A stretch of DNA of 64,000 nucleotides from Rhizobium leguminosarum bv. viciae USDA 2370 (lineage in GTDB: Bacteria > Pseudomonadota > Alphaproteobacteria > Rhizobiales > Rhizobiaceae), in NCBI RefSeq assembly GCF_002008365.1, contig NZ_MRDL01000023.1, forward strand, positions 69,599 through 133,598, read 5' to 3'. Positions 42,912 through 62,205 of this stretch are shown here, one piece after another. The first letter of the stretch is position 1; each line of letters opens with the position of its first letter. The notes below the pieces were generated by a model that was not told the DNA's origin, did no database searches, and saw only the letters and a program-made list of their open reading frames with translations. A program made the translations under genes and the position numbers.

Positions 42912-43061
42912 CTAAACTCGCTCGATCATTTCCTCGCACAGTCCCGCGCCTTCCAGCTCCCATGACCTGATGGTCCGGTCACCGTCCTTGAAGTCGAGGG
43001 TGAATACAGCGTCTTTCCCTCTGACGAGATCGATGCCGACGACGACCTTGAGATCGCTCAT
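42912..43061 (-). CDS. Small unknown protein, 49 residues
   Basis: The ATG at 43061 has GGGGAAAA ahead of it and opens MSDLKVVVGIDLVRGKDAVF, then TLDFKDGDRTIRSWELEGAG and LCEEMIERV. The sequence has regular beta-strand-like alternation and looks genuinely coding. I cannot name a family. It is the only minus-strand gene in the left part of the plasmid block and is divergent from the Toprim gene. Longer in-frame upstream extension to 43625 runs antisense through the Toprim gene and is rejected. Confidence 0.55.
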   Translation of the reverse strand: MSDLKVVVGIDLVRGKDAVFTLDFKDGDRTIRSWELEGAGLCEEMIERV

Positions 43062-43280
43062 GAATTTTTCCCCTGGCCGGCGCATCGAGCCGGCCTTTGG
43101 CGTGCCGCTTGCGAGCAGCAGGCCGCAAGGGAGGCTTCGCCGCGGCCGTGCATTGCATGATCCGACAATTGCCAGCCGCGCCCTTGCAGTCTTTGCTCTT
43201 CGCGGTGGGCCGAACGGTGCCCACGAAGCGACGGGCAAGGAAAGGCAATGGAGGCCGATCGCAGTGCGATCGGGAGCAAA

Positions 43281-44309
43281 ATGAAAAGAAGAGAGATAGA
43301 GGCGCTGCGTGAGCAGGTGAGCTGCGCGGCCGTTCTTGAACAGGCGAGGTTCGCCATCGACATCAAGGAAAGCACCCGGCGGGCAGTCAAGTTTCGCCGT
43401 GGTGGTGAAATCGTCATCGTCGCGCATGAGGGGCGCGGATGGTTTGATCCGCTCAGCGATGCGAAAGGCGATGTCTTCGGGCTTGTCGAGCATCTCGATC
43501 ATGTCGGTTTTCTCGAAGGCGCCGATAGGGTCGCGGATCTCGTTGGTTTCGAGATCACGGAACCGGAGTGGCAGCCTGCGAGCCGCGATAGAGGATGCAA
43601 CCTCTCTCTTGTCGAGCGCTGGCAAGCGCGCCGCAGCCCATGGCCCGGTTCATCGACGTGGCGCTACCTCAACGGCGAGCGCCGGCTGCCACCACCTATA
43701 CTCTGTGAGGCGATCAAAGCGGGGCTTCTTCGGGAAGGCCCGCGTGGCAGCATATGGGCAGCGCATACGGATAATGCCGGCGTGGTGACCGGATGGGAGG
43801 CGCGCGGACCGCAATACCGTGGCTTCGCCTCTGGAGGAGCGAAGGTTCTCTTCCGTCTAGGGTTGGATACTGCGTTGCGCCTGGCCGTCACGGAAGCTGC
43901 GATCGATGCCATGAGCCTTGCGGCAATCGAAGGGTTGCATGACGGCACGCTTTATCTCAGCACCGGCGGCGGGTGGTCGCCGGCCACGCAAGCCGCACTG
44001 CGGGAATTGGCCTCCCGACCGGACGCCCGGCTGGTCGCTGCGACGGACGCCAATGCACAAGGGGATCTGTTTGCCACGCGATTGCGGTCGCTTGCCGAGG
44101 ATGCCGGTTGCGAGTGGACCCGGTTGCGCCCGGCCGAGGAGGACTGGAACGAAACCCTGAAGGTCAGGGAGAAAGAAAAGGGGGAAAGAAAGGCAGGAAG
44201 CGTGCCGCATTCGCACCGCCCGCGTCAAGGGAGGCTTCGCCCGGCTGAGCCGGCCCTTGACCCAGCCAGTCGCGATGCCGGCGCCAGGCAAGGGGTCATG
44301 AAGGACTGA
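43281..44309 (+). CDS. Toprim-domain, primase-like plasmid protein (DUF3991/DUF7146-like)
   Basis: A 342-residue protein from the ATG at 43281, with GGGAGC just upstream. The N-terminal part (to ~150) resembles the DUF3991-type region: EQARFAIDIKESTRRAVKFR, GRGWFDPLSDAKGDVFGLVE, and WRYLNGERRLPPPILCEAIK. A Toprim-like core follows, with RLAVTEAAIDAMSLAAIEGL supplying the first Glu, and LVAATDANAQGDLFATRL the D-x-x/D-x-G-x type metal-binding residues. The C-terminal ~50 residues are basic and low-complexity. Toprim proteins of plasmids and phages act in priming or DNA processing. No helicase gene sits beside it. It starts the rightward-transcribed block. Confidence 0.78.
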   Translation: MKRREIEALREQVSCAAVLEQARFAIDIKESTRRAVKFRRGGEIVIVAHEGRGWFDPLSDAKGDVFGLVEHLDHVGFLEGADRVADLVGFEITEPEWQPASRDRGCNLSLVERWQARRSPWPGSSTWRYLNGERRLPPPILCEAIKAGLLREGPRGSIWAAHTDNAGVVTGWEARGPQYRGFASGGAKVLFRLGLDTALRLAVTEAAIDAMSLAAIEGLHDGTLYLSTGGGWSPATQAALRELASRPDARLVAATDANAQGDLFATRLRSLAEDAGCEWTRLRPAEEDWNETLKVREKEKGERKAGSVPHSHRPRQGRLRPAEPALDPASRDAGARQGVMKD

Positions 44310-44373
44310 AGGGGATGGCGAGGTCGATAGGACGGCGCCGCACTTCGGTCCGAAAACGCGCAAGGAGCCGCAG

Positions 44374-44979
44374 ATGATCCCCTCTCCCGCAACCACCAGG
44401 GTTTTCCAGGGCGTCGCAAGCCGCCAACAGATGTTCCGCATGTTTGACCGCCACGCGGAGCGCCCAAAGCGTTGGGATGGTGATGCCGCGCCGTTCTACT
44501 CGGGCGAATGGTTCGAGATCGGCGAGACCGAACATGACTACATGTTCGAGGTCCTTCCACCATTGTGGATCCGAGGATCCACGTTTGCGATGCGCGAGTT
44601 CATGACTGGCTCGGTGACATCAGTATTCTTCGCGCTCAGGATCGAGGCGTCCATCCGATATTTCCATGGCTACTGCGATCTTTCCGGTAAGGCATCCGTC
44701 GAAACGATGCGCGTCGCCATCATCGAGCGCGAAAGCCGAGCGGTCCGGGCGATGACGCGGCAAGAGCGGCTCGAGCATATCTGGAGCATCACTGCCGGCG
44801 ATTACCGCGGCTATGCCGGAGACGAGTGGCCGCAGTCCGCTCGCGGCAAGCGCACCGTCATACTCTATGGCGGCAACGAAGGCACCTTGCTGAAGCTGCT
44901 CGACGAACTCACGGACGGGGAGACTGCTGCGAAGCTGCCGGTGCATCTTCGCCACCTTCCCTCCCAGATCGCCGCGTGA
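44374..44979 (+). CDS. DUF1419-family plasmid protein
   Basis: A 201-residue protein of a family found on rhizobial plasmids (DUF1419). The family-like opening is SRQQMFRMFDRHAERPKRWD then YSGEWFEIGETEHDYMFEVL, followed by PPLWIRGSTFAMREFMTGSV. No catalytic motif, signal peptide or membrane segment is visible, and the role of the family is not established. It is separated from the Toprim gene by 64 bases and from the next gene by 10, so the three genes are probably transcribed together. Confidence 0.75.
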   Translation: MIPSPATTRVFQGVASRQQMFRMFDRHAERPKRWDGDAAPFYSGEWFEIGETEHDYMFEVLPPLWIRGSTFAMREFMTGSVTSVFFALRIEASIRYFHGYCDLSGKASVETMRVAIIERESRAVRAMTRQERLEHIWSITAGDYRGYAGDEWPQSARGKRTVILYGGNEGTLLKLLDELTDGETAAKLPVHLRHLPSQIAA

Positions 44980-44989
44980 GGGGGAGGCC

Positions 44990-45375
44990 ATGTTCACTTT
45001 CAGCGTGGTCGAGGTCAGTGCGGTGATCGTGCACGGACGTACCGACGCGGAAGCCAATGGCGGCTTCCGCAACCCCCACTATGGTCTACTCCCGGGTAAG
45101 GACGAACGGCCAGGTCTGTGGATCGTCGGCGACGAAGGCGTCTATCTGCTGTCCAATGGCAAACCGGCAGAAGGTCAAAGGGCGCTGAGTGCGATCCGCA
45201 GACCGATCCGGACTGCTGGCATTACAAGCGTCGGTATTTCGAGGGAGACGACGGGATCGTCTTCATCGCCGGCGCGAGCCTTGAAGCCATGCTTTCCACA
45301 ACCCCGGAACCCACGCATCTGCGGGCGCAGTTTACGTCGGAAACCATGCAGTTCTCCGTAGTCACGCGCTCGTAG
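44990..45375 (+). pseudogene. DUF3085-like plasmid protein, one frameshift
   Basis: GGGGGAGG precedes the ATG at 44990. The first frame reads NGGFRNPHYGLLPGKDERPG then LWIVGDEGVYLLSNGKPAEG, like DUF3085 proteins. At about 45180-45195 similarity moves to another frame, which continues ECDPQTDPDCWHYKRRYFEG, DDGIVFIAGASLEAMLSTTP and ends at 45375. Joined, the product would be about 128 residues, normal for the family. The join needs one single-base change, so a sequencing error or a recent mutation are equally possible. Function of the family is unknown. Confidence 0.62.
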
Positions 45376-45491
45376 CTCGCGATCGCTGCAGCCGGACGAA
45401 CCAGATCCAAATTCCTCACCTCATTCATCCGCCATCGCCCGCGGGACCTGTCCTGCGGGCGATGGCGCATATCCTCGAAAAGGAGTCTTCA

Positions 45492-50591: not shown

Positions 50592-50754
50592 TTTTGGAAG
50601 CAGTGCAGCATGTGCATAGGTGCATTGCACAATAAATGTTTTCCATCTGATCAAAATATCATCATAGTGCACACAGCTGATGCACATGGCGGTCTCCTCC
50701 CAGTGCCGCCGCAACGGCTGTTCCCCTCTGGAGGTTAAATAACCTTCACACTTC
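50592..50754. promoter_or_regulatory. TGCA-rich cluster, possible operator
   Basis: Between 50600 and 50690 the word TGCA occurs six times in about 85 bases, mostly as GTGCA(T/C) or its complement, in an otherwise AT-rich island (AATAAATGTTTTCCATCTGA). The clustering suggests a multi-site operator or a partition-like site between the helicase gene and the ParB-like gene. The protein that might bind it is unknown. Confidence 0.35.
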
Positions 50755-50788
50755 ATGGGCCTCGGTTCTTCCGACGGCCCATTTTTTT
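50755..50788 (+). terminator. Rho-independent terminator after the methylase-helicase gene
   Basis: ATGGGCC-TCGG and CCGA-C-GGCCCAT pair around a TTCTT loop (11 pairs, one bulge), followed by seven Ts. It lies 164 bases after the stop codon and cleanly separates the methylase-helicase gene from the ParB-like gene. Confidence 0.88.
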
Positions 50789-51097
50789 GTTCCCGCTCAA
50801 CCCGAATTCTGACCTTCGCATGGGATCGCCCGTCTGAAAAAACAGGAAAGAGGGTGAAAGAAAAACCGGTCGCAGATCGGTCCTCCCGTCGCCGCTGGCG
50901 CTCAACCGCGGCCTACGCAGCCCGGCCACTCGTACTTCGCAAGGCTGTTAGCCCCGCTTGTCCTTCGCGGCAGGGCAGCTCGCCCGCAGTTGCGCCGGTC
51001 AGGCCACTTTGCGCTCCGGGAGATGTCTTCAGGAAAAAATGAAGACAGGAAGGACCGGCAGAAGGCCGCGTCCGCATCCCCGGAAAGGAACACTCCC
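50789..51097. other. Long GC-rich leader before the ParB-like gene
   Basis: About 310 bases without a supported gene. It contains CTTCGCAAGGCTGTTAGCCC followed by CGCTTGTCC around 50935-50963. A near copy (CTTCGCAGGGCTTTACCCCG then CTTGTCC) occurs at about 53492-53518, in the leader of the gene at 53654. The shared segment suggests a common leader or promoter element. Confidence 0.45.
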
Positions 51098-52921
51098 ATG
51101 CAACTCATGAAGGTCGATCCGCGTGCGCTGAAGGACAATCCCGACAATACGCGCCAGTCGCAGTCGACGCCCCAGGCCGACGCGCTGCTGCTTGCGACCA
51201 TCAAGGCCGTCGGCGTCATCCAGCCGCCCGTCATTTTCGCCGAAGCCGGCGGCAACGGCTATGTCATCGAAGCCGGTCACCGGCGCACCCGCATGGCCAT
51301 CGCCGCCGGCATCGAGGAAATCGATGTTATCGTCGTCGAGGCGGCCAACGATAATGGCGCGATGCGTTCGATGATCGAAAACGTCGCGCGCGAACCGCTC
51401 AACCCCGTCGATCAATGGCGCGGCATCGAGCGCCTCGTTGCTCTCGGCTGGACCGAGGAAGCTATTGCGATTGCGCTGGCCCTGCCGGTCAGACAGATCC
51501 GCAAGCTTCGTCTGCTCGCCAATGTGCTGCCTGCGATGCTCGATCACATGGCCAAGGGCGACATGCCGAGCGAGCAGCAGCTTCGCCCGATTTCCGCAGC
51601 GTCACTCGACGAGCAGAAGGAAGTCTGGAAGGCACACAAGCCGAAGAAGAGTGAGACAGCATCCTGGTGGGCGATCGCCAACGGCCTCACCAAGACCCGC
51701 ATGTTCGCGCGCGATGCGAGTTTCGGCGATGATCTCCGCCGGGCCTACGGCATCGAGTGGGCAGAAGACCTGTTCGGACCGGCCGACGAGGATAACCGCT
51801 ACACCACCAACGTCGAAGCATTCCTCGGTGCGCAGCAGGAATGGATGAGTAGCAATCTTCCCAAGGAGGGTTCCATCGTCGAGCTCAACAATTGGGGCCA
51901 ACCCCAATTGCCGCCGAAGGCGGAGCGTATCTACGGCAAGCCCGGCAAAGGCGATTGCACCGCCATGTATCTCGATCGTGAGGGCAAGGTGCAGTCCGCC
52001 CATTTCCGGTTGCCGGAGATCAAGAAGGCGAAGCGAAAGGTCGATCCGACCGCGCCCGGCGGCGAGGACACGAACGAGGCCATCGACGTTGCAGGGAAGA
52101 CCCGTCCCGACGTGACCCGAAACGGCCTCGACATGATCGGCGATTTCCGCACAGACGCTCTGCACGAGGCACTGGCACGAGCGCCGATCGAAGACGATAC
52201 CCTCTTGGCGCTGCTCGTCCTCGCATTCGCCGGGCAGAACGTCTCGGTCGATTCCGGCTCCGAAACCTCCAACCATCTCTACGGCTCCAAGCGTTTCGCC
52301 CGGCACGCCGTCCGACTGATCGGTGAAAGCGGCAAGCTGCAGTTCGATACAGATACGCTTCGTGTCGTGGCCAGGTCGACCCTGATCGACGCACTGTCGG
52401 CGCGGACCAACCGCACGGACAGCGGCATTGTCGCCCGGATCGCCGGCGATGCCATAGGCGCCGACACCTATCTTCCGAACATGGGCACGGAGCAATTCCT
52501 CGCGTGCCTATCGCGTCCGGCACTGGAAGCGTCCTGCGGCGGTAGGAGTGTCGCTCCCCGCCCGCGCGTCAGGGACACCCGGGCTGCCCTTGTCGAGCAC
52601 TTCAAGGAAGAGCGTTTCGTGCATCCGTCTGGCCTCTTCGCACCCGATGACGTGAAGATGAGCGAATGGTTGGCCAAGAACACCGAGCATGGGGGCGATG
52701 ACGACGATGCACCCGCCGACGGGCCGATGGGCGGCATCGAGGACGGTGCCGACGGTGAGTCTGATCCCTCGATCGAAGCCGAATTGGTCGACAAACCCCA
52801 TGATCCGGAAGGCGAGGTCGGAGGCAACGCAGCCGACACCGAGCTCGAAGAGCTGGATGAAGCCGACGCTGACACCGGCACTGAGGATCCCGATACCGCT
52901 TACGGAATTGCGGCCGAGTAA
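51098..52921 (+). CDS. ParB/Spo0J-like DNA-binding protein, orphan
   Basis: A 607-residue protein. GGAAAGGAA precedes the ATG at 51098. The N-terminal ParB/sulfiredoxin-like domain has IQPPVIFAEAGGNGYVIEAG and the G-H-R-R-T-R-M signature (residues 60-66). A helix-turn-helix region follows (VDQWRGIERLVALGWTEEAI then AIALALPVRQIRKLRLL). The ~400 residues after that are unlike classical ParB (~300 residues in all), and the last ~70 are very acidic (GGDDDDAPADGP, TELEELDEADADTGTEDPD). No ParA/RepA gene is adjacent. On rhizobial plasmids such proteins sit near the transfer genes. It may act as a nuclease, CTPase switch or DNA-loading factor rather than in partition. Confidence 0.82.
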   Translation: MQLMKVDPRALKDNPDNTRQSQSTPQADALLLATIKAVGVIQPPVIFAEAGGNGYVIEAGHRRTRMAIAAGIEEIDVIVVEAANDNGAMRSMIENVAREPLNPVDQWRGIERLVALGWTEEAIAIALALPVRQIRKLRLLANVLPAMLDHMAKGDMPSEQQLRPISAASLDEQKEVWKAHKPKKSETASWWAIANGLTKTRMFARDASFGDDLRRAYGIEWAEDLFGPADEDNRYTTNVEAFLGAQQEWMSSNLPKEGSIVELNNWGQPQLPPKAERIYGKPGKGDCTAMYLDREGKVQSAHFRLPEIKKAKRKVDPTAPGGEDTNEAIDVAGKTRPDVTRNGLDMIGDFRTDALHEALARAPIEDDTLLALLVLAFAGQNVSVDSGSETSNHLYGSKRFARHAVRLIGESGKLQFDTDTLRVVARSTLIDALSARTNRTDSGIVARIAGDAIGADTYLPNMGTEQFLACLSRPALEASCGGRSVAPRPRVRDTRAALVEHFKEERFVHPSGLFAPDDVKMSEWLAKNTEHGGDDDDAPADGPMGGIEDGADGESDPSIEAELVDKPHDPEGEVGGNAADTELEELDEADADTGTEDPDTAYGIAAE

Positions 52922-53011: not shown

Positions 53012-53431
53012 ATGTCCGCGTCTTTGATTTACGACCTCGCCCCAATCGGCTCTATCAGCGCCTGGCGCGTGTCACGGCCGCTTTCCGAGCTTAAGCGCGA
53101 CGACTTCTACTCGCATCATGGCGCCGTTGCGGATGAGACGGAATTTCAAGGACGGATGTTCGAACAGGCCGAGCACAGCCGCGAGCTCCGGGCACTTCAC
53201 CGGCAGACTGTTCGGATGAACTGCTCGACGCCATGGGGACCGTCGCAGGGCGTGCGGCGGCGTGAGTCCGACCGTATGGGGGCTTTCGTGGCGGCTGGTC
53301 CGAGCTGGAGGAAGGGATGCGGGCTGTCGCTCGCAAGAGGTTCTCTCCTCCGGGGGTTCGGAGCCATAGCCCGCCCCCGCCGGTCTGCCCTTCGTTTTCG
53401 CTGCGGTCTGAACCGGCGGCCGGTCGTTTAA
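53012..53431 (+). CDS. Small unknown plasmid protein, C-terminus doubtful
   Basis: GGAG seven bases before the ATG at 53012 gives a solid start, MSASLIYDLAPIGSISAWRV. The frame stays open to 53431, but the second half runs into the GC-rich leader and looks non-coding (Arg-rich, low complexity). Another frame at 53200-53265 reads DELLDAMGTVAGRAAA and stops at 53263-53265, which looks like a natural C-terminus. A one-base frameshift near 53200 would give a protein of about 84 residues. I cannot name the family. It is 90 bases downstream of the ParB-like gene. Confidence 0.45.
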   Translation: MSASLIYDLAPIGSISAWRVSRPLSELKRDDFYSHHGAVADETEFQGRMFEQAEHSRELRALHRQTVRMNCSTPWGPSQGVRRRESDRMGAFVAAGPSWRKGCGLSLARGSLLRGFGAIARPRRSALRFRCGLNRRPVV

Positions 53432-53653
53432 AGGCCGCTGGCGCGCCGCGAAGCGGCCGGTGCAGCCTCCCTCGCAAAACGGGTTCGCGTCCTTCGCAGG
53501 GCTTTACCCCGCTTGTCCGCAAACCCGTTTCGCTCGCCCGGCCGTCCCGGACCTGTGAAAGCGCCCGTCCTTAGCCGGTTCCTGTCGACCGCATCGAAGG
53601 GCAGACCGGCAGGGGCCGGTGCCGCTTCGGTGAAACCACGAAAGGAAGATCCC
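53432..53653. other. GC-rich leader with a long-range inverted repeat
   Basis: AAACGGGTT (53477-53485) and AACCCGTTT (53522-53530) are perfect 9-bp arms around a 36-base loop that itself contains the segment shared with the leader at 50935. It precedes the gene at 53654 and may be a regulatory RNA structure or a fold that forms in single-stranded DNA. Confidence 0.5.
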
Positions 53654-54238
53654 ATGGCCAAGCCCGCAACCAATCGACCTGCCGCCCGCGTCGTGCCGCT
53701 CCGCAAGGGTACCACCCTCGAAATGGTCAGGCTCACATGCCCGGACACTGCGCAGGCAATGCTGATCGCTGAGAGTTTCGGAACCGCTGTAGTCGACAGC
53801 GATGGCATCCGTGAACTCCACGAGCGCCTGATCATTGAGACCGCCGACAGCCTCTCGGACGGTCTGGGTGAGAAGGCGATGCAGATCCATCTCCAGCGTA
53901 TCGTCGGTGCGTATGTCGGCTCGGCGCACGGCGCCGGCCTGTTCTACAGTCGAGCAGTCTCCGAAGCCCGAGACGCGACCGCCAAATCGGCAAACGATCC
54001 CCGCGACGAGGATCTCAATGGCCCGGTGGGTTACGACAGCGCCGCCCAGCGCAAACGCGAATTCGCTGCCGACATGGGCATACAGTCCCACGCGCTGCGG
54101 ATGGCCGCCGAGGGCGCAGTCGCAGCCTATCGCCACGTCATCGGCGAAGCCTGGAAGCCTTTCGACCGCCCGGTCGACAATCCAGGCCAGTCGCTCGACC
54201 GCAAGGCGGCCGAGGCACAGATGGCGGCTCTCGGTTGA
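53654..54238 (+). CDS. Conserved plasmid protein of unknown function, 194 residues
   Basis: GAAAGGAAG precedes the ATG at 53654. The protein starts MAKPATNRPAARVVPLRKGT and continues with LIIETADSLSDGLGEKAMQI, VGAYVGSAHGAGLFYSRAVS and GIQSHALRMAAEGAVAAYRH. It is predicted mostly alpha-helical and soluble, with no catalytic motif I can identify. Codon use matches its neighbours. I cannot assign a family name. It lies between the ParB-like gene and ardC, preceded by a structured leader and followed by two strong hairpins, so it is probably its own transcription unit. Confidence 0.7.
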   Translation: MAKPATNRPAARVVPLRKGTTLEMVRLTCPDTAQAMLIAESFGTAVVDSDGIRELHERLIIETADSLSDGLGEKAMQIHLQRIVGAYVGSAHGAGLFYSRAVSEARDATAKSANDPRDEDLNGPVGYDSAAQRKREFAADMGIQSHALRMAAEGAVAAYRHVIGEAWKPFDRPVDNPGQSLDRKAAEAQMAALG

Positions 54239-54247
54239 GGCGCTTCC

Positions 54248-54316: not shown

Positions 54317-54529
54317 CCATGTCAACGGAAGGAAAAACAAGAGCCCTGCCCGCCACGCGGCCTCGTCCTTGTCGGCGGTCCTGCAGGAGCCGCCGGTCTG
54401 CCACAACGGCTTTGCCGTCCTTCACTCCGTTCCGGCCGTTCCGGTGCGGCCGACCACCTGATCGCTCCTGCCTTCGGACCTCCGCGACGGGGCCGCGATC
54501 GGGGCGGCCTCCAAACGGAGGATCACGAC

Positions 54530-55456
54530 ATGAGCAGGAAAGCCGAAGGCGAACGCGCCGACATCTATGCGCGGATCACGGATAGAATTGTTGCCGATCT
54601 CGAAAAGGGCGTAAAACCCTGGATGAAACCCTGGCACGCGGCCAACACGGATGGCCGGATTACCCGGCCGCTGCGCCACAACGGTCAGCCCTATTCGGGC
54701 ATGAACATTCTTCTGTTATGGTCGGAGGGAATGGCGCGCGGCTTCACGTCACCCACGTGGATGACGTTCAAGCAGGCGCTCGAACTGGGAGCGGCGGTGC
54801 GCAAGGGCGAGACCGGTTCGACGGTCGTCTTCGCCGGCCGCTTCACCAAGTCCGAGGCGGACGGCGATGGTGAAGAAGTCGACCGGGAGATCCCGTTTCT
54901 GAAGGCTTACACGGTCTTCAACATCGAACAGATCGACAGGCTGCCCGAACACTACCATCACCGACCGACACAGGTGCTCGATCCTGTCGAGCGCGTCGAG
55001 CACGCAGATCACTTTTTCAGGAACACGGCCGCCGTCATTCGGCATGGCGGCTCGCAGGCTTATTACTCTCCGGTCACGGATCACATCCAGATGCCGCCGT
55101 TCGAGACATTCCGAGACGCGGCGTCCTACGTGGCCACGCTCAGTCACGAAAGTTGCCATTGGACTGCGCGCCCCGATCGCGTCGATCGCGATCTTAGCCG
55201 CTATGCGAAGGACAAGACCGAGCGGGCTCGCGAAGAGCTGATTGCGGAGCTCGGGAGTTGCTTCCTATGCGCCGATCTCGGGATCGCACCGGAGCTGGAG
55301 CCACGGCCGGACCATGCGTCTTACCTGGACTCGTGGCTGAAGGTTCTATCTGACGACAAGCGGGCTATCTTCCAAGCTGCGGCGCATGCCCAGCGTGCTG
55401 TCAGCTTCCTGCACGGTCTCCAGCCCGTTCAGGCCGACGAGAGAGCGGCCGCGTAG
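54530..55456 (+). CDS. ardC: ArdC-type antirestriction protein
   Basis: A 308-residue protein. GGAGGA stands eight bases before the ATG at 54530. The N-terminal ssDNA-binding-like domain (DUF1738) is ADIYARITDRIVADLEKGVK then PWMKPWHAANTDGRITRPLR and NGQPYSGMNILLLW. A C-terminal metallopeptidase-like domain carries HESCH at residues 206-210 (H-E-x-x-H zinc motif) and a downstream REELIAELGS Glu. ArdC proteins of conjugative plasmids protect incoming single-stranded DNA from restriction and are typically carried in the region that enters the recipient first. It lies about 7 kb from oriT on the side predicted to lead. Expression from a structured leader is inferred. Confidence 0.88.
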   Translation: MSRKAEGERADIYARITDRIVADLEKGVKPWMKPWHAANTDGRITRPLRHNGQPYSGMNILLLWSEGMARGFTSPTWMTFKQALELGAAVRKGETGSTVVFAGRFTKSEADGDGEEVDREIPFLKAYTVFNIEQIDRLPEHYHHRPTQVLDPVERVEHADHFFRNTAAVIRHGGSQAYYSPVTDHIQMPPFETFRDAASYVATLSHESCHWTARPDRVDRDLSRYAKDKTERAREELIAELGSCFLCADLGIAPELEPRPDHASYLDSWLKVLSDDKRAIFQAAAHAQRAVSFLHGLQPVQADERAAA

Positions 55457-55462
55457 GAGACG

Positions 55463-55639
55463 TCAAGGTCGGTCGTTGTCACCCGCAACGGCCGACAGCT
55501 CTTTCGGCGCTCTCTCCGCGAGCGCGTGCTCATCGGACGTGAGGTCCAGCCTCCCCCAGATCGATGGTTTCCGATCGTTGGCTTTCAGCTTTCGGGACTG
55601 CTTGATTTCGACGGTAAACGGCTTTGTCTGCTGACGCAT
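55463..55639 (-). CDS. Small unknown basic protein, 58 residues
   Basis: On the minus strand a strong GGAGGATCT ribosome site precedes the ATG at 55639. The product starts MRQQTKPFTVEIKQSRKLKA and continues NDRKPSIWGRLDLTSDEHAL, ending at 55463. The FTVEIKQSRKLK and KPSIWGRLDL phrases look like a conserved short plasmid protein, but I cannot name it. It is convergent with ardC (stop codons six bases apart) and is the only minus-strand gene between 43.1 and 57.3 kb. Its in-frame extension further upstream is not needed. Confidence 0.6.
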   Translation of the reverse strand: MRQQTKPFTVEIKQSRKLKANDRKPSIWGRLDLTSDEHALAERAPKELSAVAGDNDRP

Positions 55640-56091
55640 AGATCCTCCAGGCGACGAATCGCGGCCCGACAATATTGCGTTGATGAGAGGAGACAACTGC
55701 CCGGACGGCCGAGTTTGTCGCATCCGAAGCCGACGCTATGCTTTAGAGACCTGGGGAACGGCTTCGCGGCCGGGCTGTTCTGCCGGGGCAACGCACGGCG
55801 AGGGCCATGACCAAGTTCCTTCCACCGCTGTCATAGGCCACGCCCTCCGCGGGCTCGATGAGGCATGTCTGATCGGAGACCGGCTTCGCCTCGATCGTTC
55901 TCCCGCAACGGCCGTCCGCAACTTTCTTCCCCAGCGAACTGCGTTCGCATTCCTCGCGCGACAACAAAGTTTCTCCCGACCGCCCTCCATTTCATTACGG
56001 CCTTCCAGGTGCGGTCCGATCGTCCCCGATCCTTGCGACAGCCATCGAGGCCGCGAAGGGCGCGGCCCGAAACAACCGAAAGGAACAGACA
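55640..56091. other. Long GC-rich leader before the DUF736 gene
   Basis: About 450 bases without a supported gene. The promoter of the small minus-strand gene must lie at the left end. TTCCAGGTGCGG at 56004-56015 is shared, with small changes, with the leaders of ardC and the gene at 57157, each about 70-90 bases before the start codon. Confidence 0.4.
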
Positions 56092-56403
56092 ATGGCTACC
56101 ATCGGCACTTTCACCGCAAACGAAAACGGCTTCACCGGCTCGATCCGCACCCTCGCACTCAACGTCAAGGCCCGCATCGCCCGCGTCGACAGCCCCTCCG
56201 ACAAGGGCCCGCACTTCCGCATCTACGCCGGCAATGTCGAGCTGGGTGCGGCTTGGCAGAAGCGCTCCGGCGAGAGCGACCGCGACTATCTCTCGGTCAA
56301 GCTGGACGACCCGAGCTTCCCCGCCCCGATCTACGCAACGCTCTCCGAGGTCGAAGGCGAGGACGGCTACCAGTTGATCTGGTCCCGCCCCAATCGGGAT
56401 TGA
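56092..56403 (+). CDS. DUF736-family protein
   Basis: A 103-residue protein of the DUF736 family, common beside transfer genes on alphaproteobacterial plasmids. AAAGGAA precedes the ATG at 56092. Family text is [40 protein letters not shown] and [20 protein letters not shown], with the closing YQLIWSRP. The predicted fold is a compact beta-rich domain. Its biochemical role is not established. It is separated from ardC by a long leader and followed by a 300-base gap. Confidence 0.9.
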
Positions 56404-56702
56404 GATCCCAACAAGGCCCCGCCACCGAGGCGGGGCCAACTGGCCGCTTTAAGAAAGCCGGCAACGGGCGTCGAGCCCGCGGCCGACTTTTAGGGTGCCA
56501 TACGGAGAGGTGGGGGTCTGCTCATATCGGGCCTATCGTGCCGTGGAGCCGGGACAGCCTCAAGGACGAGCGGTTCCCCCAAAATGCCGGCGCATTTCGG
56601 CTCCCCCACTCACCGCCGCTGGCGGTCGCATGCGCGATCCTTGACCCTGACCCACCGCCACGCCGGCGGGCGTCATCTTTCTCAAACATCAAGGAGATGA
56701 CG

Positions 56703-56864
56703 ATGATCGAACAACAAATCGAAGAACTGCGCGCCGAGCTGAACGCTTGCATCGAGCCCGCCGAGCGTCGCGAGATCGAAGCCGAGCTCGAAATCGCCCA
56801 GGCCGAGCTGATCATGATGCTTGGCGAACAGGATGGTTCCATCGACGCCGAGCCGCCCTTCTGA
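56703..56864 (+). CDS. Small coiled-coil acidic protein, 53 residues
   Basis: AAGGAG six bases before the ATG at 56703 opens MIEQQIEELRAELNACIEPA, then ERREIEAELEIAQAELIMML and a short acidic tail. Heptad spacing of Leu, Ile and Ala predicts one helical hairpin or coiled coil. An ATG at 56697 abuts the ribosome site and is less likely. I cannot name a family. Similar tiny genes often accompany DUF736 genes on such plasmids. Confidence 0.6.
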   Translation: MIEQQIEELRAELNACIEPAERREIEAELEIAQAELIMMLGEQDGSIDAEPPF

Positions 56865-56993
56865 GGGCGGCATACCACCAGCATTGGGGGACCGCCGGCA
56901 TCCAGGATCCCGAGAGGGGCGATCCGCTGCGACTCTCCTTTCGATCTACCGTCATCGACATCGGGGATGTTGCATCCCGTCCGTCGCCCGCAA

Positions 56994-57061
56994 CCTGCCG
57001 GCGCCAGAATTTTCCCCGCCGTATTGCGGCTCCTCGCGTGCCAAATTCTGGCGCCGGCAGG
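56994..57061. repeat. Perfect 19-bp inverted repeat around a 30-base loop
   Basis: Left arm CCTGCCGGCGCCAGAATTT (56994-57012) and right arm AAATTCTGGCGCCGGCAGG (57043-57061) are exact reverse complements. There is no T-run after it, so it is not a simple terminator. It lies 96-163 bases before the GTG start of a 57-residue protein, inside the predicted leading region. Candidates are a single-strand promoter or origin, a protein-binding site, or a leader RNA structure. Confidence 0.9.
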
Positions 57062-57156
57062 TCCTTCACTCTCGTTTCGTCCTTTCAGGTGCGTCCCTCC
57101 TTGTCCGCCATGCGGCCTATCCCCGCGATATCCGCATTTCGAAAGGAGAAAATACC

Positions 57157-57330
57157 GTGCAACAGCTCGCTCAGTTCCTCACCGCCACCGGCCGTCGGCT
57201 CCGCACCCTCGGCAAGGTGATCTGTCACTACTTCCGCAAGGGGAAACTCGGCCTGAAACTGGCCATCAAGATTCCGTTCTTCGTCGAGATCGAGGCGTCG
57301 TTCGAGACCGACTGGAACCGGCGCGAATAA
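57157..57330 (+). CDS. Small unknown protein, 57 residues
   Basis: AAGGAG eight bases before a GTG at 57157 supports this start. The product reads MQQLAQFLTATGRRLRTLGK, then VICHYFRKGKLGLKLAIKIP and FFVEIEASFETDWNRRE. The centre is basic and amphipathic or weakly membrane-active (GKLGLKLAIKIPFFVEIEA). It could bind membrane or nucleic acid; I do not recognise it. A long inverted repeat precedes it. Confidence 0.55.
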   Translation: MQQLAQFLTATGRRLRTLGKVICHYFRKGKLGLKLAIKIPFFVEIEASFETDWNRRE

Positions 57331-57392
57331 CACGCCGCGGGCCGCTTCAGCGGCCCCTCCTCTACCAGCTGGAACGCGGAACACAATCATCG

Positions 57393-57701
57393 TCAGCTCG
57401 GCGAATATCGGCAGGTTGTTTTTGGCCGATAGCCGCGACCACGTTTTTGCTTCAACAGCTCAAGGAACAAGCGAACCGCTTCCTCCTCCCGTTCGAACAC
57501 ATGCTGCTTTTCCTGTCCACGCTTGCCGATCCGTCCCCATCGCCGGGTCAGGCAGGCCTCTCCGAACATCGTCTGCTCGATCTCCATGGCATAATACCGC
57601 GCCATGTTCTTGGCTGGATCCGTTCGTTCGACATAGAGCTGGTATGGTTGCGAAATCATGCCGGCATGATCGTCACACGGCGCCGCTACGTCCAACGACA
57701 T
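57393..57701 (-). CDS. WGR-domain protein
   Basis: 102 residues from the ATG at 57701, or 88 from the ATG at 57659. The WGR domain is complete: YQLYVERTDPAKNMARYYAM, EIEQTMFGEACLTRRWGRIG, KRGQEKQHVFEREEEAVRLF LELLKQKRGRGY. WGR domains bind nucleic acid ends in PARPs and also occur alone on bacterial plasmids, where their role is unknown. AGGATT overlaps the region just before 57701. A 13-base sequence immediately upstream is repeated upstream of traC, hinting at shared expression with the transfer genes. Confidence 0.82.
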   Translation of the reverse strand: MSLDVAAPCDDHAGMISQPYQLYVERTDPAKNMARYYAMEIEQTMFGEACLTRRWGRIGKRGQEKQHVFEREEEAVRLFLELLKQKRGRGYRPKTTCRYSPS

Positions 57702-58144
57702 ATGTGAATCCTACAGATGCGACCGATTCATTTTCGTGAAGAATGGGGCTTGGGCGAGGCGCCGATGGCGCACGGCTGTGGTCGCACCGCGACCGGAGCC
57801 CGCACGCGGTCTCCGCCCCGCCGGGTTACGATCCTCTCGCAGCAAGAAGCATGCCTCTGCGAAATCTCATTGTCCGGAGACAGCCGGAGCCTCCCGTCGC
57901 CATCGGAGATGGCAAGCGGTCGCGTCCCTTCAGGACGCGGTTCTATCTCTCTCTAACGTCCCATTTTGCACCCGCCGTTCCGGCGTCAAGGACATCGCGG
58001 CCCCTCCAATTTTCCCAACGCCGCAAGCGGCACAGAGAAAATCGGTTCCTCCGCTCGCCGCAGGGCGGCCGCGTTCCGCGGTCCCTGACCCCTCACGGAC
58101 TACGGTGCCGACACCTTTCGTCAGAAAACGAAAAGGAGACTCTG
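57702..58144. other. GC-rich leader before the gene at 58145
   Basis: About 440 bases without a supported gene. It holds the promoter of the WGR gene at its left end and, further right, a GCGTCC-CTTCA-GGACGC hairpin around 57924-57940. The plus-strand frames open here continue into the gene at 58145 but lack ribosome sites. Confidence 0.4.
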
Positions 58145-58459
58145 ATGACAAAGCATCAATTCGCTCGTGTGGTGGAAGAAGATCAGAAGCGGCCGGATCA
58201 ACAGCCGGATTGGCTTGAACGACTGCGCCGAAATTTTGATGCGGAAGTGCATCTTCCCGCCGATATCTCGCGGGAGTTTCTGTCTGCAGCGCTGCTTTGG
58301 GCAGTCGACAACAAGGTCGATTTCGGTTTGTTCCACGAGGCCAGCGAGATCATCATTGCGCACTTCGGCGGTGATGAGATCTACCTCCCGTCGCGGTGGT
58401 CCGACAAACGATGGCACATCGGCCTTGAGGACAAAGAGCCTTTCGATCCGAGCGACTGA
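58145..58459 (+). CDS. Unknown plasmid protein, 104 residues
   Basis: AAAAGGAG lies before the ATG at 58145. The product starts MTKHQFARVVEEDQKRPDQQ and continues PDWLERLRRNFDAEVHLPAD, ISREFLSAALLWAVDNKVDF and IYLPSRWSDKRWHIGLEDKE. It is acidic, soluble and predicted helical at its centre. I recognise no family. It is the last rightward gene before the leftward transfer operon, and its stop is followed by GC-rich hairpins. Confidence 0.65.
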   Translation: MTKHQFARVVEEDQKRPDQQPDWLERLRRNFDAEVHLPADISREFLSAALLWAVDNKVDFGLFHEASEIIIAHFGGDEIYLPSRWSDKRWHIGLEDKEPFDPSD

Positions 58460-58595
58460 GGTCGAGACCAGAGGCGGCTTGTCGCCTCTGGTCTTTGCCT
58501 ATTCACATGAGCCCCTCCAGCCGGATCGACCGAGCGGAGCGGCTATGAAAGGGGGGCTCTGCCGCCCCTCTCGATCTCACCCCATGAAGGAAGGG

Positions 58596-58660
58596 CAATG
58601 CCCCTCCTTCAAACTTCCTCCCAGGGAGAAAGGGAGACGGTTCCCTCCTCCCTTTCCCCA
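58596..58660 (-). terminator. Inverted repeats downstream of the nuclease gene
   Basis: AAGGAAGGGCA and TGCCCCTCCTT (about 58588-58610) pair with one mismatch, and a second G/C-rich dyad (GAGAAAGGGAGACGG with CCCTCCTCCCTTTCCCC) lies at about 58625-58660. Both stand between the convergent ends of the 104-residue protein gene and the nuclease gene, so they may end transcription from either side. No long T-run is present. Confidence 0.4.
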
Positions 58661-58702
58661 AACCCCTATCCCTCTCCCGTGCAGGGAAGGTGATGATGGC
58701 TG

Positions 58703-59290
58703 TCACCCGCCCTGGCACCAGCCGTGTCGGGCACCATCCCATGATCGGGCAAGCCCTTCCTTGATCAAGGCATCGCCCAGCGAATTGCCTGCACGAAATA
58801 CGGTTCGCAGTTTGCGTCCATATTTGTCTTCGTCACGGAACCCGGCCGCTAGCGAGAATTTTTCAGCGTTGAGCAGCGTCAGCAGGCGGGATTTTGCCGC
58901 CTCACCCTTTATCCGTTCCGCCTCGCACCGGGGCGGGCTGAGTTCAGGCGTATCGATGTCGGCGATGCGGATTTTCTCGCCGTTGAACCAGAATGTGTCG
59001 CCGTCGACGACGCAGTTCGCTCGATGGCTTCCGTCGCAGATCGAAAATGCGGTCGACAATGAATCCGTCGTCGGTTTCTTGGTCAAAGTGGCGAGATCGG
59101 GAAGAACGTCGGCGCCGCCATAGGCAAGCCAACCCCCAACAGCAATGATCACGGTGCATAGAACTGCCGTCGAGCGTTTACGCCATCTGTTCCGGCCAGA
59201 TCTCAGCAGTCCTCCACCCGCGCGCTGCCGGTCGCGACCGCCTCCGGCCTTCGGCGGCTTTCTAAACGGAATCACATTTGATTTCGCCAC
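58703..59290 (-). CDS. Membrane-anchored thermonuclease (SNase family)
   Basis: A 195-residue protein. A basic N-terminus is followed by one hydrophobic segment (STAVLCTVIIAVGGWLAYGG, ~40-60) that should anchor it or direct export. The SNase domain has ANCVVDGDTFWFNGEKIRIA and DIDTPELSPPRCEAERIKGE, with the Asp/Arg/Glu surroundings of staphylococcal nuclease, and a later DEDKYGRKLRTVFRAGNSLG. SNases cleave DNA and RNA with calcium. Homologues occur next to traG on rhizobial plasmids. It could trim cell-surface or periplasmic DNA during transfer, or be stored as an exclusion factor; this is speculation. It lies 299 bases from the traG stop. Confidence 0.87.
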   Translation of the reverse strand: MAKSNVIPFRKPPKAGGGRDRQRAGGGLLRSGRNRWRKRSTAVLCTVIIAVGGWLAYGGADVLPDLATLTKKPTTDSLSTAFSICDGSHRANCVVDGDTFWFNGEKIRIADIDTPELSPPRCEAERIKGEAAKSRLLTLLNAEKFSLAAGFRDEDKYGRKLRTVFRAGNSLGDALIKEGLARSWDGARHGWCQGG

Positions 59291-59589: not shown

Positions 59590-61521
59590 TCATGCAGGCT
59601 TTGGCGTATCCCCGACCATGTGAAACCTGTTTGTGCCGACGCATGCTTTCATGTCGTCGCGCCGGAACCAGATGGCTCGTCCGCATCGGAGTGGGGCGTT
59701 TCCTGCGGTGAAGACGATCTGTTCGTCGGCGCGCATGCGCAAAACTTCATGCGGCTGGATGAGCGGTCTGGCGGCAAGCTGTTTCGAGCGCGTGCGCGAT
59801 GATCCCTTTGCCTGGAAACTCCGGCTCACCTGGTCGATCTCGACCGTGGTCATGCCGCAGCGCCGGGAGATGTAATCGGCGGTTTCGGGATCGTTGATCG
59901 CGGCAAACGAAATCCAGCTGGCACTCTCGAACCACTTACTTGCCGCGTCGCGGCCGCCATAGGTTTCGCGCATCTGGCCGATCGACTGATAGATCATCGT
60001 CAGCGTGATGCCGTATTTGCGACCGGCGTCGCGAGCGGTCTCTATGATCCGCATGTAGCCGAGGCGCGCGACCTCGTCGAGGAGAAACAGGGCGCGCCCC
60101 TTGATCTGTCCGTCGCGATTGTAGATCGCATTCAGAAACGAGCCGATGATGACGCGCGCAAGACCGGAATGGGTCTCCAATGTCTTGAGGTCTATGTTGA
60201 TGAAGACGTCCGTATTGCCGGACGCGATCTCGTTGGTCGCGAACTTCTTTCCAGACACGAGTGCTGCGTAGTTCGGATAGGAAAGCCAGTGTGTTTCCTT
60301 GACCGCGTTGGCGTAGACGCCGGAGAAAGTTTCCGGCGTCATGTTGACGAAGGCTGCGACGTTTTCCTTCACAAAATCCGAGCCCGAATTGTCGTAGATG
60401 TCTTGCAGCCGTTTGCGCAATGTCGGCTCCGGCTCCGAGAGGTTCATGCGCACCTGCCGAAGCGTCTGGTCGTGCTCGTCCGTGCGGCCGGACAGGCAGA
60501 CATCGGCGATCAGCGCCGTCAGCAGTTGCAGCGCCGATGCGCGAAAGAAGTCGTCACGGACACCACGCACGCCTCCGCCGTCGCTCATGATCCATGAGGC
60601 GACCGAGGCAATATCCTCTTCCTTCGTCCCGCCGAAACGACCGACCCAGTCCAGCACGTTAAAACCGATGTCAGGCTTCCTTGGATCGAGGACGAATACA
60701 TCCCTTCCGGCTCCGCCGCGATGCACGGAGACCATCGGTGCGACCTCGTTCGAAGGATCGAGCACGATCAGCGTGCCGCCCCATTTCAGTGCCGTCGGGA
60801 TCGTCACCGACGTCGTCTTGAAGCCACCGGAACCGGCAAAGACGATCCCGTGCGACGAGCCGAACGAGCCATCGAAGCACAGCAACGGCGACTTGCCGCC
60901 GGCGCCCCACGTCTCAGCGCTGTCGGCGCGAAACGCTTGGCTCCCGACACTGTCCTTGTCGACCCGATAGCGCTCGCCGATGACGATACCACCGGCATCG
61001 GGAAACAGCTTTGCTGCCTCCGTCAGTTTCATCCAATCCGCTTCGCCATGGAGCGCCCGCTTGCCCTGAATGCGTTTTGGCTCGGCCCTTGCGAATGCCG
61101 CATTGCCGATGAGCGCGACGCGAAGCGCGAAGCAGGCACATAAGAGCGCCGCACTCGCGCCGATCGACGTCGCTGGATCGAGAAAGGCCCAGACCGTCTT
61201 GTCGGCGGGTACTGTCATGAAAGCGGAAAGGCGCATTGTTTCGCGAATGGCTGCGATCAAGATCGTCCCACTGCATCCCGCGACGACGCCCCAACCTGCC
61301 TGCTTGATATTGATCGAACCGGCGCTCGAAAACAGCAACAGAATTCCGATCGCCGCACTGGCCACATAGGGCAATGCGATGCCCGCCCGCCCCCATGCCA
61401 GTCGCGCGGCCTCGGTCTTGCCAAAACCGGAAAGCCACTGCTCTACCCCTGTCATCCCGATGACGACCAGGATCATCAACGTCCCTGGCATGACGACGAG
61501 CGCAATCCTATTGATCGTCAT
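59590..61521 (-). CDS. traG: TraG conjugal coupling protein (VirD4-like T4CP)
   Basis: A 643-residue inner-membrane ATPase. The ATG at 61521 overlaps the end of traD, implying translational coupling. N-terminal membrane helices include [20 protein letters not shown] and [15 protein letters not shown]. Walker A is [14 protein letters not shown] (residues ~228-241) and Walker B is [13 protein letters not shown] (~476-488). Length and the [13 protein letters not shown]-like region ([20 protein letters not shown]) match Ti-plasmid TraG. The protein links the relaxosome to a type IV secretion channel. No mating-pair-formation genes (trb or virB) are in the window, so the plasmid is either mobilised by another or carries them elsewhere. 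Confidence 0.95.
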
Positions 61522-61723
61522 TGCCGAAGGCCTCCACGCCGATTGCCGTGAGCCTGGACCGCTCGGTATCGTCACTCTTGATGCGGCGCGCTGCATCGAC
61601 CAGCGCGCCCAGCAACAGCGCTCGCTTCTCGTAGCGCAGACCGGCCTTGACGATCAGTCCGCCGAGCTCGATCTTTTCTCGCGTGTCCTTCTTGCGGGCG
61701 TCGGATGTCATCGTCCTCGCCAT
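61508..61723 (-). CDS. traD: TraD conjugal transfer protein
   Basis: A 71-residue protein with the Ti-plasmid TraD text [20 protein letters not shown] followed by [18 protein letters not shown]. It starts four bases after the traC stop and overlaps the traG start by 14 bases. TraD is a small accessory component of the transfer operon in pTi-type plasmids. An internal ATG at 61711 is possible but the upstream one is kept. Confidence 0.92.
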
Positions 61724-61727
61724 GCGT

Positions 61728-62021
61728 TCAAGCCTCGCCAGCGCTGCCCGCGCCCGCGCCAGACGTGACCGGCGCGGTTTGCTGCGAGACGACGGCTGCC
61801 CCTCCCCTTTCTTTTCCGGCCGTAGCGCCCTGCCCTCCGCGAAATCGCTTGGTCAGTTGCTCAAACGCTGCCTGAAGCTCCGCCTCGTCGATCTCGATCT
61901 CGCCAAGGCCCGCCTTGAGCGCGATCCGTCCGATGCGTTCCGCTTCCCGGGTCTCGGCGATCTTGAGCTGTTCCTGCAGCTTGGCGATTTCGTCGCGAAG
62001 TTTCGCGGATGGCTTCTTCAT
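61728..62021 (-). CDS. traC: TraC conjugal transfer protein
   Basis: A 97-residue protein; GGGAGACAG precedes the ATG at 62021. It opens [20 protein letters not shown] with a coiled coil and continues [40 protein letters not shown], as in Ti-plasmid TraC. The C-terminal ~35 residues are Gly/Ala-rich. It is the first gene of traC-traD-traG, divergent from traA, with oriT between them. TraC is an accessory relaxosome protein thought to help TraA at oriT. Confidence 0.92.
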
Positions 62022-62096
62022 GTCCGTCTGTCTCCCTGGGTGCGAAAGCTTGTCTTTCGAACCCAGTTTTTCGGACCGGAGTGCGGAACGCACTAC

Positions 62097-62109
62097 TGTG
62101 AATCCTACA
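62097..62109. promoter_or_regulatory. 13-bp element shared by the traC and WGR upstream regions
   Basis: TGTGAATCCTACA at 62097-62109 is identical to 57703-57715. Read on the minus strand it is TGTAGGATTCACA, containing TAGGAT, which could be a -10 element for both leftward genes. It lies 76 bases before traC and directly before the WGR gene. Confidence 0.45.
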
Positions 62110-62160
62110 ATCGCCAAGGGCGATGCTTTCGGGAATGATCCCGGCCGTTCCGAAGGAGCG

Positions 62161-62205
62161 GCTTCCAAGGGCGCAATTATACGTCGCTGGCGCGACGTGT
62201 TGCTG
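62161..62205. other. oriT, RSF1010/Ti-plasmid type
   Basis: CCAAGGGCGCAATTA lies at 62165-62179, next to the inverted repeat ACGTCGC-TGGC-GCGACGT at 62181-62198. On the minus strand this reads inverted repeat, then TAATTGCG|CCCTTGG. This is the arrangement of the RSF1010 nic region (inverted repeat followed by TAA-x-TGCG|CCCT) and of Ti-plasmid oriT, which also sits between traA and traC. The nick is predicted on the minus strand between the complements of 62172 and 62171. The 5' end then points to lower coordinates. Confidence 0.93.

Follow-up and report, generated by a model that had tools for sequence, protein, structure and literature searches.

The closest described counterparts of the elements reported here are Frpo1 and Frpo2 (ssi) of the F plasmid, which passages of the report on them describe as required for early expression in vivo (PMC9849209). 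Excerpts of the survey by Samuel et al. (2024, PMC11541004), in which MOB type Q was kept, present leading regions as anti-defence hotspots with the anti-defence families on the transferred strand (T-strand); the general idea of leading-region anti-defence genes on this strand is therefore already published. In the same excerpts, the promoter searches relied on similarity to five known Frpo/ssi sequences, with candidate searches in a few islands; the main text contains neither "Rhizob-" nor Agrobacterium nor ArdC. Likewise, excerpts of a second study, in which Frpo was searched in PLSDB by BLAST, make no mention of "Rhizob-", Agrobacterium or Alphaproteobacteria (PMC12826799), and among the open-licence papers listed in literature searches, no title or abstract start reported single-stranded DNA (ssDNA) promoters or structured leading-region elements of Rhizobiales. 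Here we analyse a stretch of 64,000 nucleotides from Rhizobium leguminosarum bv. viciae USDA 2370 (the window, G000:C70:69599-133598, within a 158,720-base contig of a 7.8 Mb genome). It resembles the islands of Samuel et al. in having anti-restriction genes near the origin of transfer (oriT), on the strand readable from the T-strand. The new, testable part is a family of hairpins upstream of leading-region genes, polarised to the T-strand, which the promoter searches of PMC11541004 would probably miss.

A Ti-type origin of transfer next to the leading block

On the minus strand, positions 62165-62179 read TAATTGCGCCCTTGG, and the stem CGTCGC-GCCA-GCGACG stands just before them; in order, the stem is followed by TA, TAATTGCG and CCCTTGG, between traC (-) and traA (+). 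A nic with its 5' stem between divergent traC and traA is the arrangement of a Ti-type MOBQ oriT with its DNA-transfer (Dtr) genes, traC/traD/traG (-) lying on one side and the MobA/MobL relaxase gene traA (+) on the other. In agreement with this, excerpts of a comparative paper on Mesorhizobium elements describe divergent traA and traC flanking oriT of the Ti plasmid (PMC8627217). The nic 15-mer is identical in pTi C58 (L017) and shows one mismatch in R. etli p42a (L015), two in a Bradyrhizobium plasmid (L018) and three in a Roseibium plasmid (L019). In the last three, both stem and nic are found again and the stem still pairs, although in the Roseibium plasmid its letters differ. No match to the 15-mer within four mismatches was found for the oriT of pAt (L016) and of R. 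acidisoli pSym (L020). A 22-mer of the nic site, with up to three mismatches, occurs at 61 places as compared to 4 for the reversed pattern, and is present in 53 of 297 genomes of the family. From what is known of RSF1010 and Ti, we assume a nick between G and C, with the strand on its 3' side leading. Because of this and of the nic homology, the minus strand is predicted to lead, the leading region running downward from about 62.2 kb and the block below 59.3 kb coming after traCDG. By its sequence, the stretch thus appears to come from a conjugative plasmid of the Ti-type MOBQ group and to form its leading region, with the gene order traA-oriT-traCDG-leading block of pTi C58 and p42a; the homology supports the minus-strand nic and the order of entry that had been proposed in an earlier sequence-only reading of this DNA.

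The part of the window between 42 and 62 kb has matches in 730 plasmid records, 528 of which are typed conjugative; the largest groups are Agrobacterium (232), Rhizobium (230), Bradyrhizobium (77) and Sinorhizobium (62), and R. leguminosarum plasmids are closest. Leading DNA was taken from 54 of 60 further oriT places and, where the contig allowed, DNA at 20-40 kb on the leading side from 28 loci and trailing DNA from 35. The other six places had less than 8 kb of leading contig on the known side and were excluded from the counts; L028, L029, L048, L061, L063 and L071 were retained despite less than 8 kb of leading DNA, as were two doubtful nic matches (L033, L043). Genes in relatives were called with a small codon-usage caller; on two annotated plasmids it recovered 42 of the 47 annotated genes and made 2 additional calls.

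Intergenic hairpins are conserved as secondary structure

Self-complementary intergenic stretches stand upstream of DUF736 (55815-56086), orf194 (53370-53619), orf58 (56993-57062) and the DarB-like gene (45427-45470), and the intergenic regions upstream of DUF736, ArdC and orf58 are homologous to each other. A comparison with 1033 intergenic regions (795 leading, 238 trailing) gave relatives for seven of the eight window intergenics, all from leading DNA and nearly all in one polarity; the exception was the intergenic upstream of the DarB-like gene, to which none of the 1033 was related.

The DUF736-upstream element (element A) was studied in an alignment of 38 non-redundant copies (A1). RNAalifold found 45 pairs, 25 of them with compensatory change, and gave -45.0 kcal for the T-strand as compared to -22.6 for the opposite strand (42 versus 9 pairs with DNA energies). 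Because RNAalifold permits G.U, a strand-symmetric score treating G.T and A.C alike was adopted, although RNAalifold agrees with folding of the T-strand. With this score the fold has 62 pairs and reaches 11.3, while 12 column shuffles give at most 1.16; 93.8% of cells are paired and 34 pairs are changed on both sides. Covariation is 0.255, as compared to 0.129 +/- 0.005 in shuffled alignments (none of 500 reaches the observed value) and at most 0.090 when the pairing is slid. Element A has the shape of one interrupted hairpin of about 250 nt, in which a variable apical stem lies between the conserved purine-rich strands CGCGAGGAATG and AGGGGAAGAAAG, with a small extra hairpin after the main one, toward the ribosome-binding site.

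Similar results were obtained for upstream sets built from the 54 loci with the window copy itself excluded: orf58 (8 relatives; score 12.45, null at most 2.44), orf55 (17 relatives; 6.83, null at most 0.18, 14 covarying pairs) and the ParB-like gene (22 relatives; 5.4, null at most 1.0); a set for orf194 was built likewise. Covariation thus shows that what is conserved in these intergenic elements, about 250 nt long and upstream of leading genes, is their secondary structure. Upstream of ArdC, the median folding z was -4.4 in 12 of 29 tested. An unrestricted ranking of covarying columns was rejected as evidence: the pair ranked first belongs to a helix, but non-structural ones are among the top 60 (the 21 mostly Watson-Crick pairs among them have G.T 27 and A.C 18). 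When A1 was folded with G.T forbidden, almost nothing was found.

In several plasmids, small palindromic inserts of the GGGGTCCCC...GGGGTGG type occupy more than one loop position of element A: A1 columns ~89-128 (L015, L032, L036, L037, L049, L050, L053, L072), 200-233 (L049, L052) and 238-265 (L034). Upstream of the DarB-like gene, 45427-45470 is an inverted repeat of 21 bp, 90% complementary with 2 nt between the arms, and ends 21 bases before the start at 45492.

Conserved pairs follow the rules of the transferred strand

A pair that is needed on one strand tolerates G.T there, which the other strand reads as A.C. On the T-strand, the helices of A1 have G.T 100 versus A.C 33, while background pairs of the same alignment have 977 versus 917. 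The same excess was observed upstream of the ParB-like gene (43 versus 15), orf194 (48 versus 14; 16 relatives), orf55 (39 versus 14) and orf58 (27 versus 8), and, in regions resembling integrative and conjugative elements (ICEs), upstream of DUF736 (36 versus 15) and of other genes (66 versus 28). Across these seven sets the G.T:A.C ratios are 2.4-3.4, with backgrounds of 0.93-1.39. Pooled, they amount to 355 versus 127, to 280 versus 133 after removal of sequences more than 85% identical, and to 179 versus 87 at 75%. Paired columns with more G.T than A.C number 130 versus 51 (88 versus 42 after the 75% filter), with sign tests of 1e-5 (85%) and 7e-5 (75%), p values that are optimistic as the sequences share ancestry. 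A positive control, the Frpo family of the F plasmid (12 sequences), gave 42 versus 9 over a background of 275 versus 281. The excess of G.T over A.C supports that pairing in the elements follows the rules of the T-strand. A replication set made up of 33 named sequences that are unlike A1 again shows the structure (score 5.5, null at most 0.7) and the same direction (54:26; background 388:400), and all 50 named sequences together give 97:37 (sign test 26 versus 12, p 0.03).

Other upstream sets gave 10 versus 9 (WGR), 0 versus 2 (SNase) and 2 versus 5 (HU). The oriT was tried as a further positive control and dropped, its sets being inconsistent with each other. On the trailing side, the intergenic fam15-fam13 (probably traH-traM by position; seven sequences) is strongly structured with the opposite sign, G.T 13 versus A.C 29, as expected for an RNA from the other strand.

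Where the element occurs

An nhmmer profile of the DUF736-upstream element (17 seeds) gave 61 matches in 0.94 Mb of leading DNA at 0-20 kb, all 61 in one polarity, and none in 0.55 Mb at 20-40 kb or in 0.69 Mb of trailing DNA. The genes that follow are DUF736 (42), ArdC (11), orf58 (2) and six others, and 59 of the 61 are templated by the T-strand (T-templated). A model of the inner 104 positions (R1) was then found 81 times in 45 of the 54 leading loci (0.94 Mb), each time on the T-strand and with several copies per plasmid, and once in 1,236,446 bases of trailing and 20-40 kb DNA. At E up to 1, R1 matches the complete 158.7-kb contig of the window three times, each time within the leading region. 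Mobile palindromic repeats of the RIME type were considered and are disfavoured by these leading-region-only copies on the contig and the single match in 1.24 Mb of trailing and distant DNA.

Beyond these loci, R1 was found in 74 of 151 genomes of the family and 19 of 240 of the class (the genome of the window counted in both), and just upstream of DUF736 in 77 of the 79 loci from named genomes (the best 79 of 552), always on the template strand. Several R1 matches are same-strand pairs on chromosome-size contigs. Twenty such ICE-like regions (L140-L159) were picked for having matches, so that their hit rate is no test and only the polarity of the downstream gene was used. We infer that they are ICEs: traF-like genes occur in 9 of the 20, and L143, the one tested by Pfam, has a strawberry-notch helicase, a Toprim protein and an RPA initiator nearby. 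The R1 match ends 80-100 bp from the start of DUF736 and 18-120 bp from that of a second gene (~310-330 aa), which is a YAcAr/SLOG gene in three of three tested by Pfam; the element also stands upstream of other genes in R. acidisoli pSym. A downstream gene was called for 37 of 38 ICE-like matches; 35 of these 37 are transcribed from the folded strand, and the remaining two are calls of such genes that appear to start too early and take in the element.

In the genome of the window, weak R1 matches were also seen at C47:12-52, C64:12-52 and C68:9868-9978, two of which lie at contig ends; the element may also be present on other conjugative replicons of this strain.

Strand bias is a trait of the conserved backbone

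In the interval from 43.2 to 58.5 kb, eleven genes lie on the plus strand and hence have the T-strand as template: DUF3991-Toprim_2, DUF1419, DUF3085, the methylase-helicase, the ParB-like gene, orf194, ArdC, DUF736, orf55, orf58 and orf104. In every relative called, the T-templated orientation is kept for DUF736 (48/48), ArdC (33/33), orf194 (29/29), the ParB-like gene (24/24), Toprim (23/23), the DarB-like gene (17/17) and DUF1419 (17/17). Per gene, the T-templated share is 0.66-0.67 in each bin from 3.2 to 25 kb from nic, 0.52-0.61 beyond 25 kb, and 0.26-0.51 in trailing DNA at 5-20 kb. The bias is a property of the conserved backbone module, because at 2.7-25 kb from nic in the 54 relatives its families, minus-strand ones included, are T-templated in 340 of 408 cases, as compared to 248 of 502 for other genes; the constancy is inheritance. 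Orientation alone was therefore dropped as evidence, the minus-strand families being equally constant and the non-backbone genes 49% T-templated. The claim that the T-strand is the template of the backbone genes is borne out by these relatives. In outline, the polarity and the module of the sequence-only reading are right. Its "almost every gene" on the plus strand is contradicted by the WGR and SNase genes (57393-57701 and 58703-59290), which it does not name and which are minus-strand here and kept so in relatives; a module complete on one strand is not supported.

A possible role in early expression

The anatomy of the elements invites comparison with Frpo1 and Frpo2 of F. Both families lie in the leading region, just upstream of establishment genes templated by the T-strand, with a long interrupted hairpin of the T-strand (here established in silico by covariation and by the G.T/A.C polarity), several copies per plasmid and G.T in excess of A.C. 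They differ in that the present elements have no clear sequence relation to Frpo and no -35/-10 recognisable with the E. coli consensus, and belong to Rhizobiales and some other alphaproteobacteria, in MOBQ/Ti-type systems and chromosomal ICE-like loci. We lean slightly toward the reading that they are Frpo-like ssDNA promoter and/or priming sites of Rhizobiales plasmids and ICE-like loci.

By homology, TraA would nick the minus strand at about 62171, and this strand would enter the recipient 5' end first, so that traCDG and then the establishment block from 59 to 43 kb would arrive early. Before a second strand exists, the hairpins could offer host RNA polymerase (or primase) a double-stranded foothold, with DUF736, orf58, orf55, orf194, the ParB-like protein and probably ArdC as early products. 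The DarB-like enzyme and ArdC might then shield the incoming DNA from restriction. Once the second strand is made, the hairpin would be lost and early expression would cease, as proposed for F Frpo; the WGR and SNase genes, unreadable from the T-strand, would have to wait for that strand. For the early-transcribable module suggested earlier, T-polarity hairpins upstream of several genes offer a concrete route, although the module is not all on one strand. Whether, more broadly, Rhizobiales plasmids and ICE-like elements have their own Frpo-unrelated family of T-strand hairpins, acting as single-strand promoters (or promoters and priming sites) of a zygotically induced regulon that includes ArdC, DUF736, ParB-like and SLOG genes, a case of convergent evolution in alphaproteobacteria, we regard as evenly poised. 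Early expression from incoming ssDNA is established for F; another family of such hairpins, unrelated to Frpo and found in Ti-type and symbiotic plasmids, would, if true, make the strategy more general. R1 would then serve as a sequence handle for finding leading regions and establishment genes that searches with Frpo cannot detect, and the count of G.T versus A.C in conserved pairs is a simple comparative test of which strand of a plasmid element folds.

Several observations weigh against a promoter or priming function on the T-strand. The Bradyrhizobium plasmid L018 shares the nic, but its annotated first 40 kb contain nothing of the module, and in relatives WGR, SNase and HU keep the opposite strand (T-templated in 0/38, 2/15 and 2/13). 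R1 run on 20 kb of F has a best E of 0.05, outside the presumed Frpo regions, and so gives no clear sign of homology; the only two F matches with default filters, at E ~1, fall on the T-strand of these regions. No sigma-70-like promoter was found in 50500-58700 (0 versus 1.2 by chance) with a consensus that is that of E. coli, and -35/-10 boxes were absent from the element arms on inspection by eye; alphaproteobacterial promoters are looser than the E. coli consensus. Single-sequence folding energies, weak as evidence and set aside, are unremarkable (z -2.3, random coding windows going down to -3.6). The polarity itself is uneven, in addition to the shared ancestry of the sequences. Upstream of ArdC (3:8) and Toprim (11:12), counts that turn to 27:22 and 13:4 with stricter filtering, it is alignment-dependent and not shown. 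The whole DUF736-orf55 intergenic is weak (33:22), the ParB-upstream set falls to 31:30 at 85% filtering, and oriT gave 23:6, 25:11 and 5:21 in differently grouped sets. The sign test for A1 by itself weakens under filtering (30:10, 27:13, 17:11, 10:5), that of the replication set is non-significant (18 versus 11, p 0.26), and a badly bounded first replication gave weak structure and no polarity (47:38, 21:36, 30:33).

T-strand polarity and restriction to leading DNA would fit equally well if the hairpins were ssi/primase sites only, priming the complementary strand with no promoter role. The plasmid could have its own primase in the Toprim protein, given the DUF3991-Toprim_2 gene of the module, and a DUF7146-Toprim_3 gene is found next to one of the ICE-like copies (L143); transcription and primer synthesis are both named in the title of the Frpo paper. 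The position of the elements just upstream of start codons read from the folded strand, at the distances given above, and the several copies per plasmid, needless for priming alone, speak for more than that, and we consider priming alone unlikely. A G.T excess does not separate ssDNA from RNA of the same polarity, and the ar15 small RNA (sRNA) has the same excess on its RNA strand (24 versus 10), so the elements might instead encode structured antisense RNAs from the minus strand over gene leaders. Such RNAs would start at about each gene's start codon, the folded strand lacks a T-run at its 3' end, and no Rfam family reached its gathering score on either strand of 53200-58700 (three weak matches, E 0.04-0.1), which makes this explanation quite unlikely.

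Shared descent of one block would account for the orientation and the elements together, the palindromes serving a plasmid regulator as operators or cruciform sites in the DNA duplex. Strand constancy extends to minus-strand genes such as WGR, and the elements do share ancestry with each other. A function in double-stranded DNA, however, predicts G.T equal to A.C, at odds with the pooled counts of the seven sets and their backgrounds, and covarying long-range stems over 250 nt are unlike operators; we hold this explanation to be very improbable.

Gene content of the leading block

The sequence-only reading had proposed an establishment and anti-defence module, and its anti-restriction content stands. 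ArdC combines the ssDNA-binding ArdcN domain with a zincin domain, as does ArdC of R388. The methylase-helicase, whose closest known counterparts are P1 DarB and the polyvalent methylase-helicases, matches phrog_10089, "DarB-like antirestriction", near full length with 1627 bits; SNF2-rel_dom and ResIII score above the Pfam cut-off and Helicase_C and Eco57I (the methylase) below it, in line with an adenine methylase fused to an SF2/SNF2 helicase. By sequence, both are thus members of recognised anti-restriction families. Excerpts of the literature describe DarB-type methylase-helicases and ArdC as early effectors (PMC5512222), with ArdC acting, and needed, in the recipient (PMC7213743). The window gene differs from P1 DarB in being encoded in a leading region rather than known to be carried in a particle, and its antirestriction activity is predicted. 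No family evidence supports the suggestion that the unnamed genes are new anti-defence genes. DUF736 is predicted to be all-beta (mean predicted local distance difference test, pLDDT, 87.9), and the fold gave no indication of function, with no Foldseek match under 1e-3 and a best VIA-align Z of 5.6. All features are listed in Table 1.

Table 1. Predicted features of the leading block, oriT and hairpin elements, in window coordinates
Feature	Position	Strand	Evidence and remarks
traA relaxase, N-terminal part, past window end	62277..63998	+	PF03389 MobA_MobL, E 1.1e-77
oriT core	62165..62197	-	stem CGTCGC/GCGACG, then nic; predicted T-strand 5' end near 62171, nick by analogy
traC	61728..62021	-	PF07820
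traD	61508..61723	-	PF06412
traG coupling protein	59590..61596	-	PF02534, E 3e-163
SNase-like protein, not T-templated	58703..59290	-	PF00565
orf104	58145..58459	+	no Pfam, PHROGs, NCBIfam or PADLOC match
Intergenic upstream of orf104	57702..58144	.	blastn matches in DUF736-orf55 intergenic of 6 plasmids
WGR-domain protein, not T-templated	57393..57701	-	PF05406
orf58, small protein	57157..57330	+	gene call; T-templated in 8/8 relatives
Element copy upstream of orf58, folded strand = T-strand	56987..57085 (within 56865-57156)	-	R1 49.6 bits; inverted repeat 56993-57062
orf55, small protein	56697..56864	+	T-templated in 18/18 relatives
Structured element upstream of orf55	56404..56696	-	window copy by homology; structure from 17 relatives
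DUF736	56092..56403	+	PF05284, E 1.3e-33
Element A type copy, ~250-nt imperfect hairpin upstream of DUF736	55837..56088	-	inner part R1 108.4 bits; folded strand = T-strand
ArdC (ArdcN + zincin)	54530..55456	+	PF08401, PF18818, phrog_7245
Partial element A match upstream of ArdC	54400..54440 (intergenic 54239-54529)	-	R1 29.4 bits
orf194	53654..54238	+	no family match (Pfam, PHROGs, NCBIfam, PADLOC)
Type B element upstream of orf194	53370..53653	-	250-bp imperfect palindrome 53370-53619, self-complement E 7e-8
ParB-like protein	51098..52921	+	NF010406 PRK13832, 937 bits; ParB_N
Type B element upstream of ParB-like gene	50787..51097	-	window copy by homology; set of 22 relatives
ar15 (AbcR-type) sRNA gene, T-templated	50675..50786	+	RF02345, 108.8 bits
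DarB-like methylase-helicase, 1699 aa	45492..50591	+	phrog_10089, 1627 bits, near full length
DUF3085 gene, split over two frames	44990..45375	+	PF11284 in both frames
DUF1419	44374..44979	+	PF07215, E 9e-55
DUF3991 + Toprim_2 protein	43248..44309	+	PF13154, PF13155

The gene plan is shared, with inserts, by p42a, pTi and the Roseibium plasmid; in pAt and R. acidisoli pSym, DUF736 and WGR are kept and the neighbours are partly different. The DUF3085 frames of the window (44990-45361 and 45118-45375) correspond to an unbroken copy annotated in pTi C58 and Roseibium. pTi C58 further differs from the window in its zeta toxin, HEPN and mobile mystery A/B inserts. The inserts in the leading blocks of pTi C58 (L017 16279-17333, 32705-35940) and the Roseibium plasmid (L019 23770-24623, 29686-33141) comprise toxin-antitoxin, HEPN, DUF4160, mobile-mystery and methyltransferase genes, on the strand opposite to the backbone except for a ParDE pair in L019.

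The ar15 sRNA gene sits between the DarB-like and ParB-like genes, and a tandem pair that looks chromosomal is present on C66 of this genome. Plasmid copies of ar15 are listed in a supplementary figure of a published study (PMC3712013). Leading-region copies also occur in p42a, L035, L036, L050 and L072, and one in L020 in the opposite orientation. As a core leading-region feature ar15 was rejected, being present in only 4 of 54 loci plus the window and p42a, all T-templated, with L020 as counter-example. The GC content is about 0.58-0.61 just before 43 kb, as compared to 0.62-0.65 across most of the leading module.

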